From positions 12,960 through 48,139 of the forward strand of contig JAHDEJ010000037.1 of the NCBI GenBank assembly GCA_020628865.1: a stretch of DNA of 35,180 bases. Reading direction: 5' to 3'. The stretch's first letter is position 1. Every line of letters begins with the position of its first letter. The notes below the pieces were generated by a model. That model did no database searches. It was given only the letters and a program-made list of their open reading frames with translations, and was not told the origin of the DNA. A program made the position numbers and the translations under genes. Origin of the DNA: Acidimicrobiales bacterium. Its GTDB lineage: Bacteria > Actinomycetota > Acidimicrobiia > Acidimicrobiales > SHLQ01. Shown here in pieces: positions 25,442-30,150 of the stretch.

Positions 25442-26599
25442 TCAGGCGTTGACCGTCGCCGCGATCCGGTCGACCGCTTCAGCGACGATGTGGCGCGAAG
25501 TCGCGAGGTTCATGCGAACGAAACCCCGGCCCTGGCTGCCGTACTCGGGCCCGACGCCGAGCGCGAGCCGAGCCCGGTCGAACAGGACCTCGGCCGGGTT
25601 GTCGCCGAGTCCGCACTCGGTGAGATCGACCCACGCCAGATACGTTGCCTCGGGCATCGCATGCCGGCTCTGAGGAACCTGCTCCGCCAGCGACGCGGCG
25701 AAGAACCGGCGGTTGCCATCGACGTAGGCGAGCATCTCGTCGAACCAGATCTGACTCTCGGGGTCGGTCCACGCCGCCATGGTGGCAACGTGCCCCATGA
25801 TCGAGACCTCGCCGACCATTCGGTGGGTCATCGCCTCCAGCTTGGCCCGGAGCTCCGGCGACCCGAAGTGCACCAGTGCGCACCGGTTGCCGGCCAGGTT
25901 GAACGCTTTGCTCGCAGCGGTGAGCGTGATGGTGCGAGCTGCCACAGCGGGAGCCACCCGGGCGAACACGTGGTGCACGTGATCGTCGTGCAACAGGTCC
26001 TGGTGGATCTCGTCGGCGATCACGAGCAGGTCGTGGCGTTCCGCGACCTCGGCGATGGCCGTCAGTTCGTCGACGGTGAAGACTCGTCCGGTGGGGTTGT
26101 GCGGGTTGCACAACATGAGCACGGTGGTCGTCTCGTCGATCGCGGCCTCGAGCACGTCGGCGTCGACCACGTAGCGATCGCCATCACGACCCAACGGCGC
26201 TTCGACCCGGCGGCGACCGAGCTGGTCGATGGCGTTCAGGAATGGCGTGTAGATCGGCATCTGCACCACCACACCGTCGCCGGGCTGCGAGCCGATCGTC
26301 AGCGCGAAGTGCAGCCCCTGCACCACCGTGGTGAGCAGCCAGGTGTCGTCGAGTTCGATGTGCCAGTCGTAGCGGGCCGCCATCCGATCCACGAACGCCT
26401 GCCGCACGGCGTCCCGCAGGTCATACCCGGGATATCCCAGATCATCGATATCGAGCACGTTCTGCATCGCAGCCTTGATGGGCGGCGCGATCGGGAAGTC
26501 CATGTCGGCGACCCACGCGGCAAGCACGTCGTCGGGGTCCCGAGACCACTTCACGCTCAGCTTCTTTGCCAGGACCTCGAATTCCAGATCGTCGAACAT
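25442..26599 (-). CDS. MalY/PatB-family PLP aminotransferase/cystathionine beta-lyase
   Basis: Fold-type I PLP enzyme of the MalY/PatB subgroup, 385 aa. Members act as C-S beta-lyases on cystathionine or as aminotransferases. Visible residues: CNPHNPTGR (164-172), VIADEIHQD (Asp196 holds the pyridine nitrogen), the PLP Schiff-base lysine Lys231 in AASKAFNLAGNRCALV and the carboxylate-binding Arg in GRGFVRMNLATSR near the C-terminus. The N-terminal pattern WVADMDFPIAPPIKAAM and YPGYDLRDAVRQAF also fits MalY/PatB. The ATG at 26599 was chosen; a GTG at 26617 would add six residues. It lies downstream of the palindromic repeat pair and converges on the BI-1 gene through a terminator. Confidence 0.9.
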   Translation of the reverse strand: MFDDLEFEVLAKKLSVKWSRDPDDVLAAWVADMDFPIAPPIKAAMQNVLDIDDLGYPGYDLRDAVRQAFVDRMAARYDWHIELDDTWLLTTVVQGLHFALTIGSQPGDGVVVQMPIYTPFLNAIDQLGRRRVEAPLGRDGDRYVVDADVLEAAIDETTTVLMLCNPHNPTGRVFTVDELTAIAEVAERHDLLVIADEIHQDLLHDDHVHHVFARVAPAVAARTITLTAASKAFNLAGNRCALVHFGSPELRAKLEAMTHRMVGEVSIMGHVATMAAWTDPESQIWFDEMLAYVDGNRRFFAASLAEQVPQSRHAMPEATYLAWVDLTECGLGDNPAEVLFDRARLALGVGPEYGSQGRGFVRMNLATSRHIVAEAVDRIAATVNA

Positions 26600-26623: not shown

Positions 26624-26730
26624 ATCTGTGCAGCGCTGGATGCCACATCGACACCTGACGCTTCACAGAACATCACCTTCGGAATCTGTGCAGCGCTGGA
26701 TGCCACAGTGGCACCTGACGCTTCACAGAA
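26624..26730. repeat. Tandem pair of 47-bp imperfect palindromes (60-bp period)
   Basis: Two copies (26624-26670 and 26684-26730), separated by 13 bp, agree at 44 of 47 positions; the three differences cluster at 26648, 26649 and 26651. Each copy is an imperfect inverted repeat: the outer arms TCTGTG and CACAGA are perfect, then AGCG and CGCT, and the second copy also has the inner arms TGCCAC and GTGGCA. It lies between the pyc stop and the aminotransferase start. Its size and symmetry recall dispersed palindromic elements; neither copy encodes a convincing protein. The direction of transcription from pyc would give a hairpin RNA. Confidence 0.9.
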
Positions 26731-26739
26731 TGGGTGGGA

Positions 26740-29700
26740 TCAGTTCTCGATGTCGGTTTCGGGGCTGCCGCTGAGGCCGCTGGGGCGAATCTCGAGGATG
26801 AGGTCGCCGCCTTCGAGGCTGGCGCCGCTGGCGCAGGCAATCCGTTCGATGGTCCCGTCGATCATCGCAGAGATGGAGGACTCCATTTTCATGGCCTCGA
26901 TCACCGCAACGGTGTCACCGGCGGCAACCTCGTCGCCGACCGCAACCGCCACGTTGACGACGCCACGGAACGGTGCACCGACGTGCCCGGGGCGGGTCGA
27001 ATCGGCCCGTTCGGCCTCGGGACGATCGGAGGCCACGGAGCGGTCCCGCGTCTCGATGGGACGCCCCTGACCGTTGACCCGGAACATGACGGATCGCATG
27101 CCCTCGGCGTCGGCATCGCTGATCGCATCCGCGCCGACGAGCAGGCGGACGCCGCGGCCGAGGCCGATGGCGGAATCCTCCCCCTTGGTGTCGACGCCGT
27201 ACCAGAACAGCGGAGACGGCAGCACCGACAGATCGCCGTAGCGGTCGGCCTGCTCGAGCCGTTGGGCCGACGGCCCCGGAAAGAGCAGCCGGTTCAGCGT
27301 GGCCCGACGATCGGTATCGAGCCCCTCCTGATCGGCCGGAAGCAGATCTTCGGTGTGGGGTTCCCAGGCCCGACCCTCAACAGCCTTCGATCGGAACGGC
27401 TCCGGGAATCCGCCGGGCGGATCGCCGAGCTCGCCGTGGAGGAACCCGACGACGCTGTCCGGCAGGTCGACGCTGGCGGGGTCCTCGAGCAATTGCTCCG
27501 GGGTGACGCCGGATGCGACGAGGTGGAGGGCAAGGTCGCCGACCACCTTCGACGATGGAGTGACTTTGATCGGTCGGCCCAGCAGCTGGTTGCAGGCGGC
27601 GTAGAGCTCCTCGACCTCCTCGAACCGGTCGCCGAGCCCGAGCGCCGTCGCCTGCGAGCGCAGGTTGGACAGCTGGCCGCCCGGGATCTCGTGTCGGTAG
27701 ACGGTGCCGGTCGGCGACTGGAGGCCGGCCTCGAACGGCTTGTAGACGCGACGCACCGCCTCCCAGTAGGGCTCGAGATCGCCGATTGCGTCGAGGCTGA
27801 TACCGGTCTCGCGTTCGGAGTTGTCGGTCATCGAGACGAGCGCAGCGATGGACGGCTGCGACGTCATCCCCGACAGCGGCGGTGCGGCCGCATCGACCGC
27901 GTCGACACCGGCGTCGATCGCCGCCATGTACGTGGCGAGCTGGCCGCCTGATGTGTCGTGGCTGTGCAAGTGGACGGGCTGATCGAAGCGCTCGCGGAGC
28001 GCGGTCACCAGCGTGCGGGCAGCACTGGCGCGGAGGAGTCCGGCCATGTCCTTGATGCAGAGGATGTGCACACCGGCGTCGACCAGGTCCTCGGCGACGC
28101 CGAGGTAGTAGTCGAGCGTGTAGAGCGACTCGTTCGGATCGGAGAGATTGCCCGAGTAGCAGATGGTCCCCTCGGCGACCTTTCCTGCATCGAGGACCGC
28201 TTCGATCGCCGGCCGCATCTGGCCGATGTCGTTGAACGCATCGAACACCCGGAAGATGTCCATGCCCGACTCCGCGGCCTCGGCGACGAACGCCTTCGCG
28301 ACGGTGTCCGGGTACGGCGAGTAGCCGACCGTGTTCCGACCCCGCAGCAGCATCTGGGTGCAGATGTTGGGCGCCGCTTCACGGAGCCGCTCGAGCCGTT
28401 CCCACGGATCCTCGTGGAGGAAGCGGAGGGCCACGTCGAACGTGGCGCCACCCCAACACTCGAGGCTCAGCAGCCCTGGCATGGTGTGGGCGATCTGCCG
28501 CGCGCCGGCCACGAGGTCGATCGTGCGAACGCGGGTCGCCAGAATCGACTGGTGTGCGTCGCGAAGCGTCGTGTCGGTGACGCCGACGTCACTCGACGCT
28601 CGCAGCTCCGCCGCGAACTTCTCCGGACCAAGTTCCAGCAGACGCTGCCGGGAGCCGGCGGGAGGCTCGACTTCGGGACGAGGAGCGAGCTTCGACGCCG
28701 GATCGACCCGTGTGGGTGCCGGGCCGTGAGGCTGATTGACGGTGACATCCGCGAGATAGCGGAGGAGACGCGTCGCCCGGTTGGCGCCGACCGCAGCCGA
28801 CGTGAGCTCCGGTCGCTGCTCGATGAAGTTCGTCGTGACCGCGCCGGAGATGAACTGCTCGTCGCTCAGGATCGCCCGGAGGAACGGCAGGTTCGTGGCG
28901 ACGCCCCGGATCCGGAACTCGGCGAGTGCACGCTGCATCCGTCGAACGACGGTGTCGAACTCGTTGCCTCGGCACGTCAGCTTCTCGATCAGCGAGTCGA
29001 AGAACGGCGTGACGACCGCACCCTGATACCCGCCGCCGTCGAGGCGAACGCCACCGCCGCCTGGCGCTCGGTACGCGACGATGCGACCCGTGTCGGGCCG
29101 GAAGTCGTTCCCCGGATCCTCGGCCGTGACGCGGCACTGCATGGCGAAGCCCCGCAGTTGGATCGTGTCCTGCGCGATGCCGAGGTCGGGCAAGGTTGCG
29201 CCTGCAGCGATGCGGAGCTGCGACTCGACGAGGTCCACGTCGGTGACTTCCTCGGTGACCGTGTGCTCGACCTGGATGCGCGGGTTCATCTCGATGAAGA
29301 CATGGCGGCCGGTCGAGTCCACGAGGAACTCGACGGTGCCGGCGTTCTTGTACTCGATCGATTCGGCGAAGCGAACAGCGTCGTCCAGCAGCTGGTCCCG
29401 TATCGCAGGGTCGAGGTTCGGCGCCGGTGCGAGTTCGACAACCTTCTGGAAGCGGCGCTGCACCGAGCAGTCGCGTTCGAAGAGGTGGACGACATTTCCG
29501 GCGCCGTCGGCGAGGATCTGCGCCTCGATGTGGCGCACGTCGGTCATCGCCTCTTCGAGAAACACCGTTGGATCACCGAAGGCGCTGGCACCCTCCCGGC
29601 TCGCCGCGTCGACGGCATCGACGAGGTCCGCCGGGTCCTCGATCCGACGCATGCCTCGACCGCCTCCGCCGGCAGCGGCCTTCACGAAGATGGGGAAGCC

Positions 29701-30150
29701 GATCTCCTCCGCGTATGCGACGGCGTCTTCCGGGTTCTCGATGGGCGGCGACTGCTGCAGCACGGGGAGACCGGCGGCCTCGGCCGCAGCGCGGGCCCGC
29801 ATCTTGTTGCCCGTGAGTTCGAGGACGTGGGCGGACGGGCCGACGAAGGTGATGCCGGCCGCTTCGCATGCCTCGGCGAGGTCCGGGCTCTCGGAGAGGA
29901 ACCCGTACCCCGGATAGATGGCGTCGGCGCCGGCCTTCCGTGCCGTCTCGACGATGAGCTCGTGGTCGAGATACGCACGCAGCGGATGGCCCCGCTCACC
30001 GATCTCGTAGGACTCGTCCGCCTTGATCCGGTGGAGGGAGCCATTGTCCTCCCAGGTGTGGATCGCAACCGTCTTGATCCCGAGCTGCGTTGCCGCTCGG
30101 AAAGCCCGAATGGCGATCTCACCCCTGTTCGCAACCAGCACCTTCTGCAT
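26740..30150 (-). CDS. pyc: Pyruvate carboxylase (single-chain, biotin-dependent)
   Basis: Carboxylates pyruvate to oxaloacetate using ATP and biotin, the main anaplerotic step. It has 1136 aa, the expected single-chain length. Order of domains: biotin carboxylase (about 1-450, start KVLVANRGEIAIRAFRAA, ATP-grasp AAAGGGGRGMRR), carboxyltransferase (about 525-800, DTTLRDAHQSILATRVRT and LHSHDTSGGQLATY), a PYC-tetramerisation-type region (about 830-1020) and biotinyl domain (about 1055-1125). The biotin site is Lys1088 in EAMKMESSI. In the biotinyl domain the usual APMPG is GAPFRG, a small oddity. ATG start has AGGAGGGG 5 nt upstream (30156-30163). Shares a 213-bp divergent gap with the quinone oxidoreductase gene; no unusual site is visible in that gap. 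Confidence 0.96.
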   Translation of the reverse strand: MQKVLVANRGEIAIRAFRAATQLGIKTVAIHTWEDNGSLHRIKADESYEIGERGHPLRAYLDHELIVETARKAGADAIYPGYGFLSESPDLAEACEAAGITFVGPSAHVLELTGNKMRARAAAEAAGLPVLQQSPPIENPEDAVAYAEEIGFPIFVKAAAGGGGRGMRRIEDPADLVDAVDAASREGASAFGDPTVFLEEAMTDVRHIEAQILADGAGNVVHLFERDCSVQRRFQKVVELAPAPNLDPAIRDQLLDDAVRFAESIEYKNAGTVEFLVDSTGRHVFIEMNPRIQVEHTVTEEVTDVDLVESQLRIAAGATLPDLGIAQDTIQLRGFAMQCRVTAEDPGNDFRPDTGRIVAYRAPGGGGVRLDGGGYQGAVVTPFFDSLIEKLTCRGNEFDTVVRRMQRALAEFRIRGVATNLPFLRAILSDEQFISGAVTTNFIEQRPELTSAAVGANRATRLLRYLADVTVNQPHGPAPTRVDPASKLAPRPEVEPPAGSRQRLLELGPEKFAAELRASSDVGVTDTTLRDAHQSILATRVRTIDLVAGARQIAHTMPGLLSLECWGGATFDVALRFLHEDPWERLERLREAAPNICTQMLLRGRNTVGYSPYPDTVAKAFVAEAAESGMDIFRVFDAFNDIGQMRPAIEAVLDAGKVAEGTICYSGNLSDPNESLYTLDYYLGVAEDLVDAGVHILCIKDMAGLLRASAARTLVTALRERFDQPVHLHSHDTSGGQLATYMAAIDAGVDAVDAAAPPLSGMTSQPSIAALVSMTDNSERETGISLDAIGDLEPYWEAVRRVYKPFEAGLQSPTGTVYRHEIPGGQLSNLRSQATALGLGDRFEEVEELYAACNQLLGRPIKVTPSSKVVGDLALHLVASGVTPEQLLEDPASVDLPDSVVGFLHGELGDPPGGFPEPFRSKAVEGRAWEPHTEDLLPADQEGLDTDRRATLNRLLFPGPSAQRLEQADRYGDLSVLPSPLFWYGVDTKGEDSAIGLGRGVRLLVGADAISDADAEGMRSVMFRVNGQGRPIETRDRSVASDRPEAERADSTRPGHVGAPFRGVVNVAVAVGDEVAAGDTVAVIEAMKMESSISAMIDGTIERIACASGASLEGGDLILEIRPSGLSGSPETDIEN

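Follow-up and report, generated by a model that had tools for sequence, protein, structure and literature searches.

Dispersed 45-bp palindromes of an Acidimicrobiales genus and their probable partner, a predicted AbiEi-type nuclease

The RAYT/REP pattern consists of a stable single nuclease and a gene-less repeat family (see PMC8266576 and PMC3733652), and published REPs show a preference for gene 3' ends (PMC3733652). A second point of comparison is the AbiEi antitoxins, which bind two 23-bp inverted repeats set 3 bp apart, a site of about 49 bp (PMC7319586). Here I describe a pair of palindromes next to pyc in an Acidimicrobiales-type draft genome (G000; 5.36 Mb, 113 contigs). The pair in the window (the whole stretch of 35,180 nucleotides analysed) is probably a non-autonomous representative of a 45-bp recognition element, served in trans, in a REP/RAYT-like manner, by an AbiEi-wHTH/Vsr-type nuclease as its partner. 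The features of the locus are as follows:

25442-26599, minus strand: aminotransferase class I/II gene (Pfam), context downstream of the pair
26625-26669, no strand assigned: palindromic unit, copy 1, 45 bp, TCTGTGCAG...CTTCACAGA
26670-26684, no strand assigned: spacer between both units, 15 bp, giving the 60-bp period
26685-26729, no strand assigned: palindromic unit, copy 2, 45 bp, TCTGTGCAG...CTTCACAGA
26740-30150, minus strand: pyc (pyruvate carboxylase; Pfam), context outside the element; the pair follows its 3' end

The first-pass annotation, made from the letters of this DNA, reported two 47-bp copies (26624-26670 and 26684-26730; 44/47 identical, or 94%) starting 60 bp apart in a non-coding gap, with pyc on one side and the aminotransferase gene on the other. 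The copies, their spacing and the gap are real, but the exact unit is 45 bp, and the family extends beyond the gap to other sites in the genome. Each copy is indeed an inverted repeat, and its hairpin is more stable than those of dinucleotide shuffles (z -2.4 to -5.0), the effect being greater on the minus strand, that of the pyc transcript. All three differences between the copies fall at the loop and loop edge, as had been noticed. Copy 2 (26685-26729) and the stop codon of pyc are 10 bp apart. No match at the Rfam gathering score was found in the window. The aminotransferase gene has a close orthologue in G008 only. At the pyc site of G008 (L090:1760-1864), compared with window positions 26625-26729, both copies share the centre GTGTYGATGTGG (minus strand), which is present in just one of the two G000 copies; conversion between neighbouring copies at this site is possible.

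A BLAST search of the region against its own genome returned 25 places, and a covariance model search identified 40 hairpins. These occupy 27 sites, of which 14 hold a single copy and 13 a tandem pair, with a period of exactly 60 bp in 13/13 pairs. The best-strand E values run from 1e-16 to 1e-10, and up to E = 1 there were no weaker matches except opposite strands of the same copies. The unit has a fixed length: it is a 45-bp palindrome of the form TCTGTG-N33-CACAGA, with the consensus TCTGTG-M-AG...TGYC-N5-GRCA...CT-K-CACAGA, and thus a multicopy intergenic palindrome within the 20-50 nt of REPs. The first-pass annotation had named a case against itself, in which only these two copies existed, with no stem-preserving substitutions and no counterpart in relatives, and the copies found here and in related species are at odds with it. 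Thus a local duplication without function, to which the 94% identity of the window copies might point, is refuted by the 40 copies genome-wide and by conservation across species, and has practically no chance of being correct. The sites look unevenly spread over the contigs, with 7/27 on C44 (418 kb) and 4/27 on C76 (121 kb), and regional clustering on the chromosome is possible.

Among 40 genomes searched with the covariance model, matches were confined to this genus. Counts of WTCTGTG-N33-CACAGAW in the 11 genus genomes, in the order listed, were 36, 30, 22, 32, 2, 11, 18, 8, 29, 8 and 2, set against 0 matches to the reversed pattern as a control; the family's other genera have at most one match. 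Copy numbers are 8-36 in the eight genomes whose nuclease is of the TCTGTG palindrome type (see below); G004 and G006 carry 2 copies each, and their nuclease homologues carry other palindromes. An exact-pattern scan of a species-genome collection found two Acidimicrobiales MAGs and one probable chance match; this last, in Robiginitomaculum (L141), looks like chance because palindromic arms are absent and the DNA is unrelated. A different genus (G014, L245) has a single near-perfect palindrome of equal length, TCTGTGAACC...GGTTCACAGA.

The arms are lineage-specific, CAG/CTG in G000, G002 and G008, GAG/CTC in G001, G007 and G010, and GAC/GTC in G003, left and right being altered together. In G002 the period is mostly 59 and one triple is present. 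Most dispersed sites are not in common between G000, G001 and G002. Where sites are orthologous (L085/L095/L221 and L214/L099), the arms have altered in concert (AAG/CTT, CAG/CTG, GAG/CTC); alternatively, the elements at these positions may stem from separate insertions. At one orthologous site (L085:2378-2422 versus L095:978-1022), the G000 interior resembles the reverse complement of the G002 interior, which would fit an inversion in place or a separate insertion.

With genes called by a purpose-made codon-usage gene caller, the median distance from a copy to the nearest gene 3' end is about 10 bp (10.5 over all sites), usually with the copy after the stop codon, and 0/26 scorable G000 sites lie in divergent gaps versus 23/87 background gaps. 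The arms are kept while the interior drifts: in 20 orthologous copies of G000 and G008 (restricted to copies recognisable in both, a bias partly offset by the covariance search, which showed no tail of decayed copies) the outer 9+9 positions had 1/360 changes and the interior variable positions 45/420. Such near-invariant arms, under persistent selection in dispersed copies, are more than is expected of inert transposon debris, which weighs against the reading preferred here.

These data bear on the idea that the palindromes are host-domesticated 3'-end RNA hairpins (terminators or exonuclease barriers), with arms kept by selection and only a historical link to a nuclease. Position and stable folding agree with it, as do the different hairpins that follow pyc in G003 and some other species and the sense-strand excess of G.U over A.C mismatches in G000 (52:23; 50:28 in G002). 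However, there is no U-tract after the hairpin of the kind found in canonical intrinsic terminators (T fraction 0.19 in the following 8 nt), about 5/26 G001 copies do lie in divergent gaps, and it is the arm sequence that is conserved, not pairing alone, at a length of exactly 45 bp and with arms that track nuclease type. Covariation within the genome did not rise above shuffles and was rejected as proof of RNA structure. I thus consider 3'-end hairpins an unlikely explanation. A structured RNA read from the pyc transcript, as first suggested, is weakly indicated by the G.U excess in G000 and, less so, G002, but G001 has none (14:21) and there is no covariation.

The first-pass annotation also proposed an uncharacterised REP/BIME-like family. 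The kind was right, as the elements are dispersed, intergenic, near 3' ends and arranged as singles, pairs and one triple, but membership among RAYT-linked REPs did not hold. An ordinary REP family mobilised by a RAYT has in its favour a distribution like that of published REPs (PMC3733652), four Y1_Tnp/RAYT genes in G000 and RAYTs in 11/11 genus genomes. However, the TCTGTG palindrome is absent as a RAYT flank at loci L021-L024 and L104-L130 and lies within 1.5 kb of only one examined RAYT gene (L112, about 0.9 kb), and GTAG, as in RAYT-associated REPs, lies close to an end (8 nt or less) in 3/101 copies. Because the resident RAYTs carry other palindromes and GTAG is absent from the ends, the family is not a RAYT-linked REP, and mobilisation by a RAYT is very improbable. 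Each of the four G000 RAYTs (L021, L022, L023, L024) is bracketed by a different palindrome family, e.g. AGGTGCCTGGCACCT, GGGGTCTGACCCCT and GGGTGAARGTGAGACGCGACCCC. The consensus end TCTGTG also contains no CGTC, the tetranucleotide of the CGTC-tagged REPs, which have no known transposase.

A putative partner gene came to light between neighbouring element clusters: several cluster pairs spaced by about 1 kb enclose one and the same gene, with homologues in three species. A common function for all cluster-enclosed genes was rejected, as several clusters enclose ordinary ones (SH3 domain, RlaP, luciferase-like); the informative cluster pairs enclose a nuclease gene. In G000 this gene (C44:237462-238370) adjoins sucD and sits between two pairs of the TCTGTG palindrome. 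Its product combines an AbiEi_4 wHTH domain with a REase_MTES_1575 domain (PF18741), the latter matched below the Pfam cut-off. The AbiEi domain is supported by PF13338, PADLOC AbiEi and fold 6y8q. Given the sub-threshold Pfam match, the nuclease domain was assigned from structure and profile: in an AlphaFold model of the fused protein (pLDDT 87.6, with low confidence around 249-259), Foldseek related the N-terminal part to AbiEi antitoxin and Rv2827c folds and the C-terminal part to the homing endonuclease I-Bth0305I and Vsr, and a profile search of PDB sequences agreed (I-Bth0305I, E 3.6e-6). D235, E246, H253 and D262 are invariant in 19/19 divergent members, so that both the catalytic fold and the conserved acidic and histidine residues of the Vsr/EDxHD type are present. 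The protein is thus predicted to join an AbiEi-type DNA-binding domain to a Vsr/I-Bth0305I-like nuclease (EDxHD, PD-(D/E)XK superfamily).

The TCTGTG-type nuclease adjoins sucD in six species (G000, G001, G002, G003, G005 and G010). The gene is therefore stable, while palindromes and dispersed copies differ between species, and it looks vertically inherited. No adjacent AbiEii toxin gene lies beside it in the loci checked, where the neighbours scanned were sucD, an amidohydrolase, thioredoxin, an oxidoreductase and a biotin-synthase-type gene. In G008 the palindromes are present and the nuclease was not detected in a draft that is 67% complete. Viral carriage was rejected, as viral contigs contained no exact pattern match and phage records no nuclease homologue; plasmids gave two weak DUF559 matches.

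Gene and palindrome go together. TCTGTG-type palindromes lie on both sides of the gene in G000, G001, G002, G003, G005, G007, G009 and G010, and nearly all homologues in the genus have a palindrome of about 45-50 bp on either side, each protein subgroup having its own (TCTGTG types, AATTTGAACCG, AATTTGAAGAG, AATTTGTGCAC, AATTTCGTGG, TTTGTGAAGG, TTTGTACAG and others). In a flank alignment test, for which the four G000 RAYT genes with their own different palindromes served as positive controls, 26/27 full-length genes of the genus scored >19, versus 21/285 mismatched pairs, a set that includes some pairs with a common palindrome type. Protein and palindrome co-diverge (Mantel rho 0.52, 0/5000 permutations). 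The dispersed copies follow suit: 20/24 in G001 matched their own flank type outright and 3 tied, and 6/6 of those tested matched in G003; G000 and G002 share one flank type and are indistinguishable in this test.

The pairing recurs across the phylum. Homologues at E <= 1e-12 were present in 131/396 sampled Actinomycetota genomes, often several per genome, and in 20 of the best 29 loci the match between the flanks exceeded the 99th percentile for mismatched pairs. Of a further 60 Actinomycetota homologues, picked blind to their flanks, 34/60 had matching flanks, some of them not clean palindromes, versus 7/71 neighbouring genes used as controls (Fisher 6e-9; threshold, the 99th percentile of mismatched flanks). 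In the other 26/60 the alignment test found no matching flanks, and palindromes may be absent or may have been missed by the test. Five loci (L346, L358, L361, L373 and L375) are flanked by long repeats resembling arrays of several palindrome copies, not single copies.

Could the palindromes be operators only, through which the AbiEi-nuclease regulates its own gene and a dispersed regulon with no mobility? AbiEi antitoxins do autoregulate through inverted repeats of such size (PMC7319586), the nuclease gene has palindromes upstream of it, and selection on the arms is strong. However, the G000 copies are at 3' ends, not promoters, and also just after the nuclease gene, most sites are not common between species, and the nuclease residues are conserved; I regard this explanation as decidedly unlikely.

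For a recognition element served in trans, the size of the AbiEi operator is close to that of the 45-51 bp palindromes, and I therefore propose two-protomer binding with nuclease action. Two protomers would bind the two palindrome arms, and the nuclease would nick or cut the palindrome or its close surroundings, perhaps while the palindrome is in an extruded or single-stranded state. Repair or strand transfer might then occasionally leave a copy elsewhere, with insertions surviving mainly just after stop codons. The analysis establishes an association of gene and palindrome; binding, cutting, mobilisation and the cause of selection on the copies I infer. As to movement, target-site duplications of at least 3 nt, as left by MITEs and insertion sequences, flank 1/75 copies (shuffled mean 0.2), no clean empty site and no filled/empty site pair was found, and all of the 20 copies in G008 have orthologues in G000, with no direct sign of movement. 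These results weigh against the proposal, as do the G008 draft without a detected nuclease, the apparent vertical inheritance of the gene and the 26/60 homologues for which no matching flanks were found.

More broadly, I lean towards a phylum-wide selfish or domesticated system of AbiEi-wHTH/Vsr nucleases. Each would lie between copies of its own palindrome, of about 45 bp, would co-evolve with it and would spread or maintain it as a dispersed gene-end element; RAYT/REP would be a convergent case with an unrelated enzyme. Such nucleases are currently annotated as antitoxins or DUF559 proteins, and in full-text searches of an open-access library I found no paper linking them with palindromic repeats, a provisional result. 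The pairing with cognate palindromes would give a concrete role to AbiEi/nuclease proteins without a known one and cautions that toxin-antitoxin or defence may be too simple a label for these genes. If true, REP-like families have had more than one origin, on the basis of unrelated nucleases, and a source of gene-end hairpins in high-GC genomes is explained.

Of the known systems, TIR-flanked TIRtrons and MITEs share a gene between repeats and gene-less copies, but here there is no target duplication, each end has a complete palindrome and the unit is fixed at 45 bp. EDxHD/Vsr homing endonucleases (I-Bth0305I) share the catalytic fold, by profile and structure comparison, and offer a selfish-gene analogy, whereas here the gene is free-standing between palindromes and was not seen in an intron or intein. 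The AbiE type IV toxin-antitoxin system (AbiEi, Rv2827c) has the same N-terminal wHTH and AbiEi fold and a target of paired inverted repeats spanning about 49 bp; unlike it, the present genes have no adjacent AbiEii in the loci checked, a nuclease fusion and genome-dispersed repeats. Finally, the REP/BIME/REPIN and RAYT systems (REPtrons) have short dispersed intergenic palindromes near 3' ends, as singles and dimers, which also bracket a single cognate nuclease gene; the partners are specific to their repeats, and the nuclease is apparently inherited vertically. They differ in using an HUH tyrosine transposase (TnpA-REP) where an AbiEi-wHTH and Vsr/EDxHD nuclease is found here, and the unit here lacks GTAG and is near-symmetric, 45 bp long and conserved in its arms at both ends. 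What seems new, then, is that an enzyme of this type is paired with palindromes of its own; the working mode seems to resemble RAYT/REP and, on a stricter view, might be called a variant of it.
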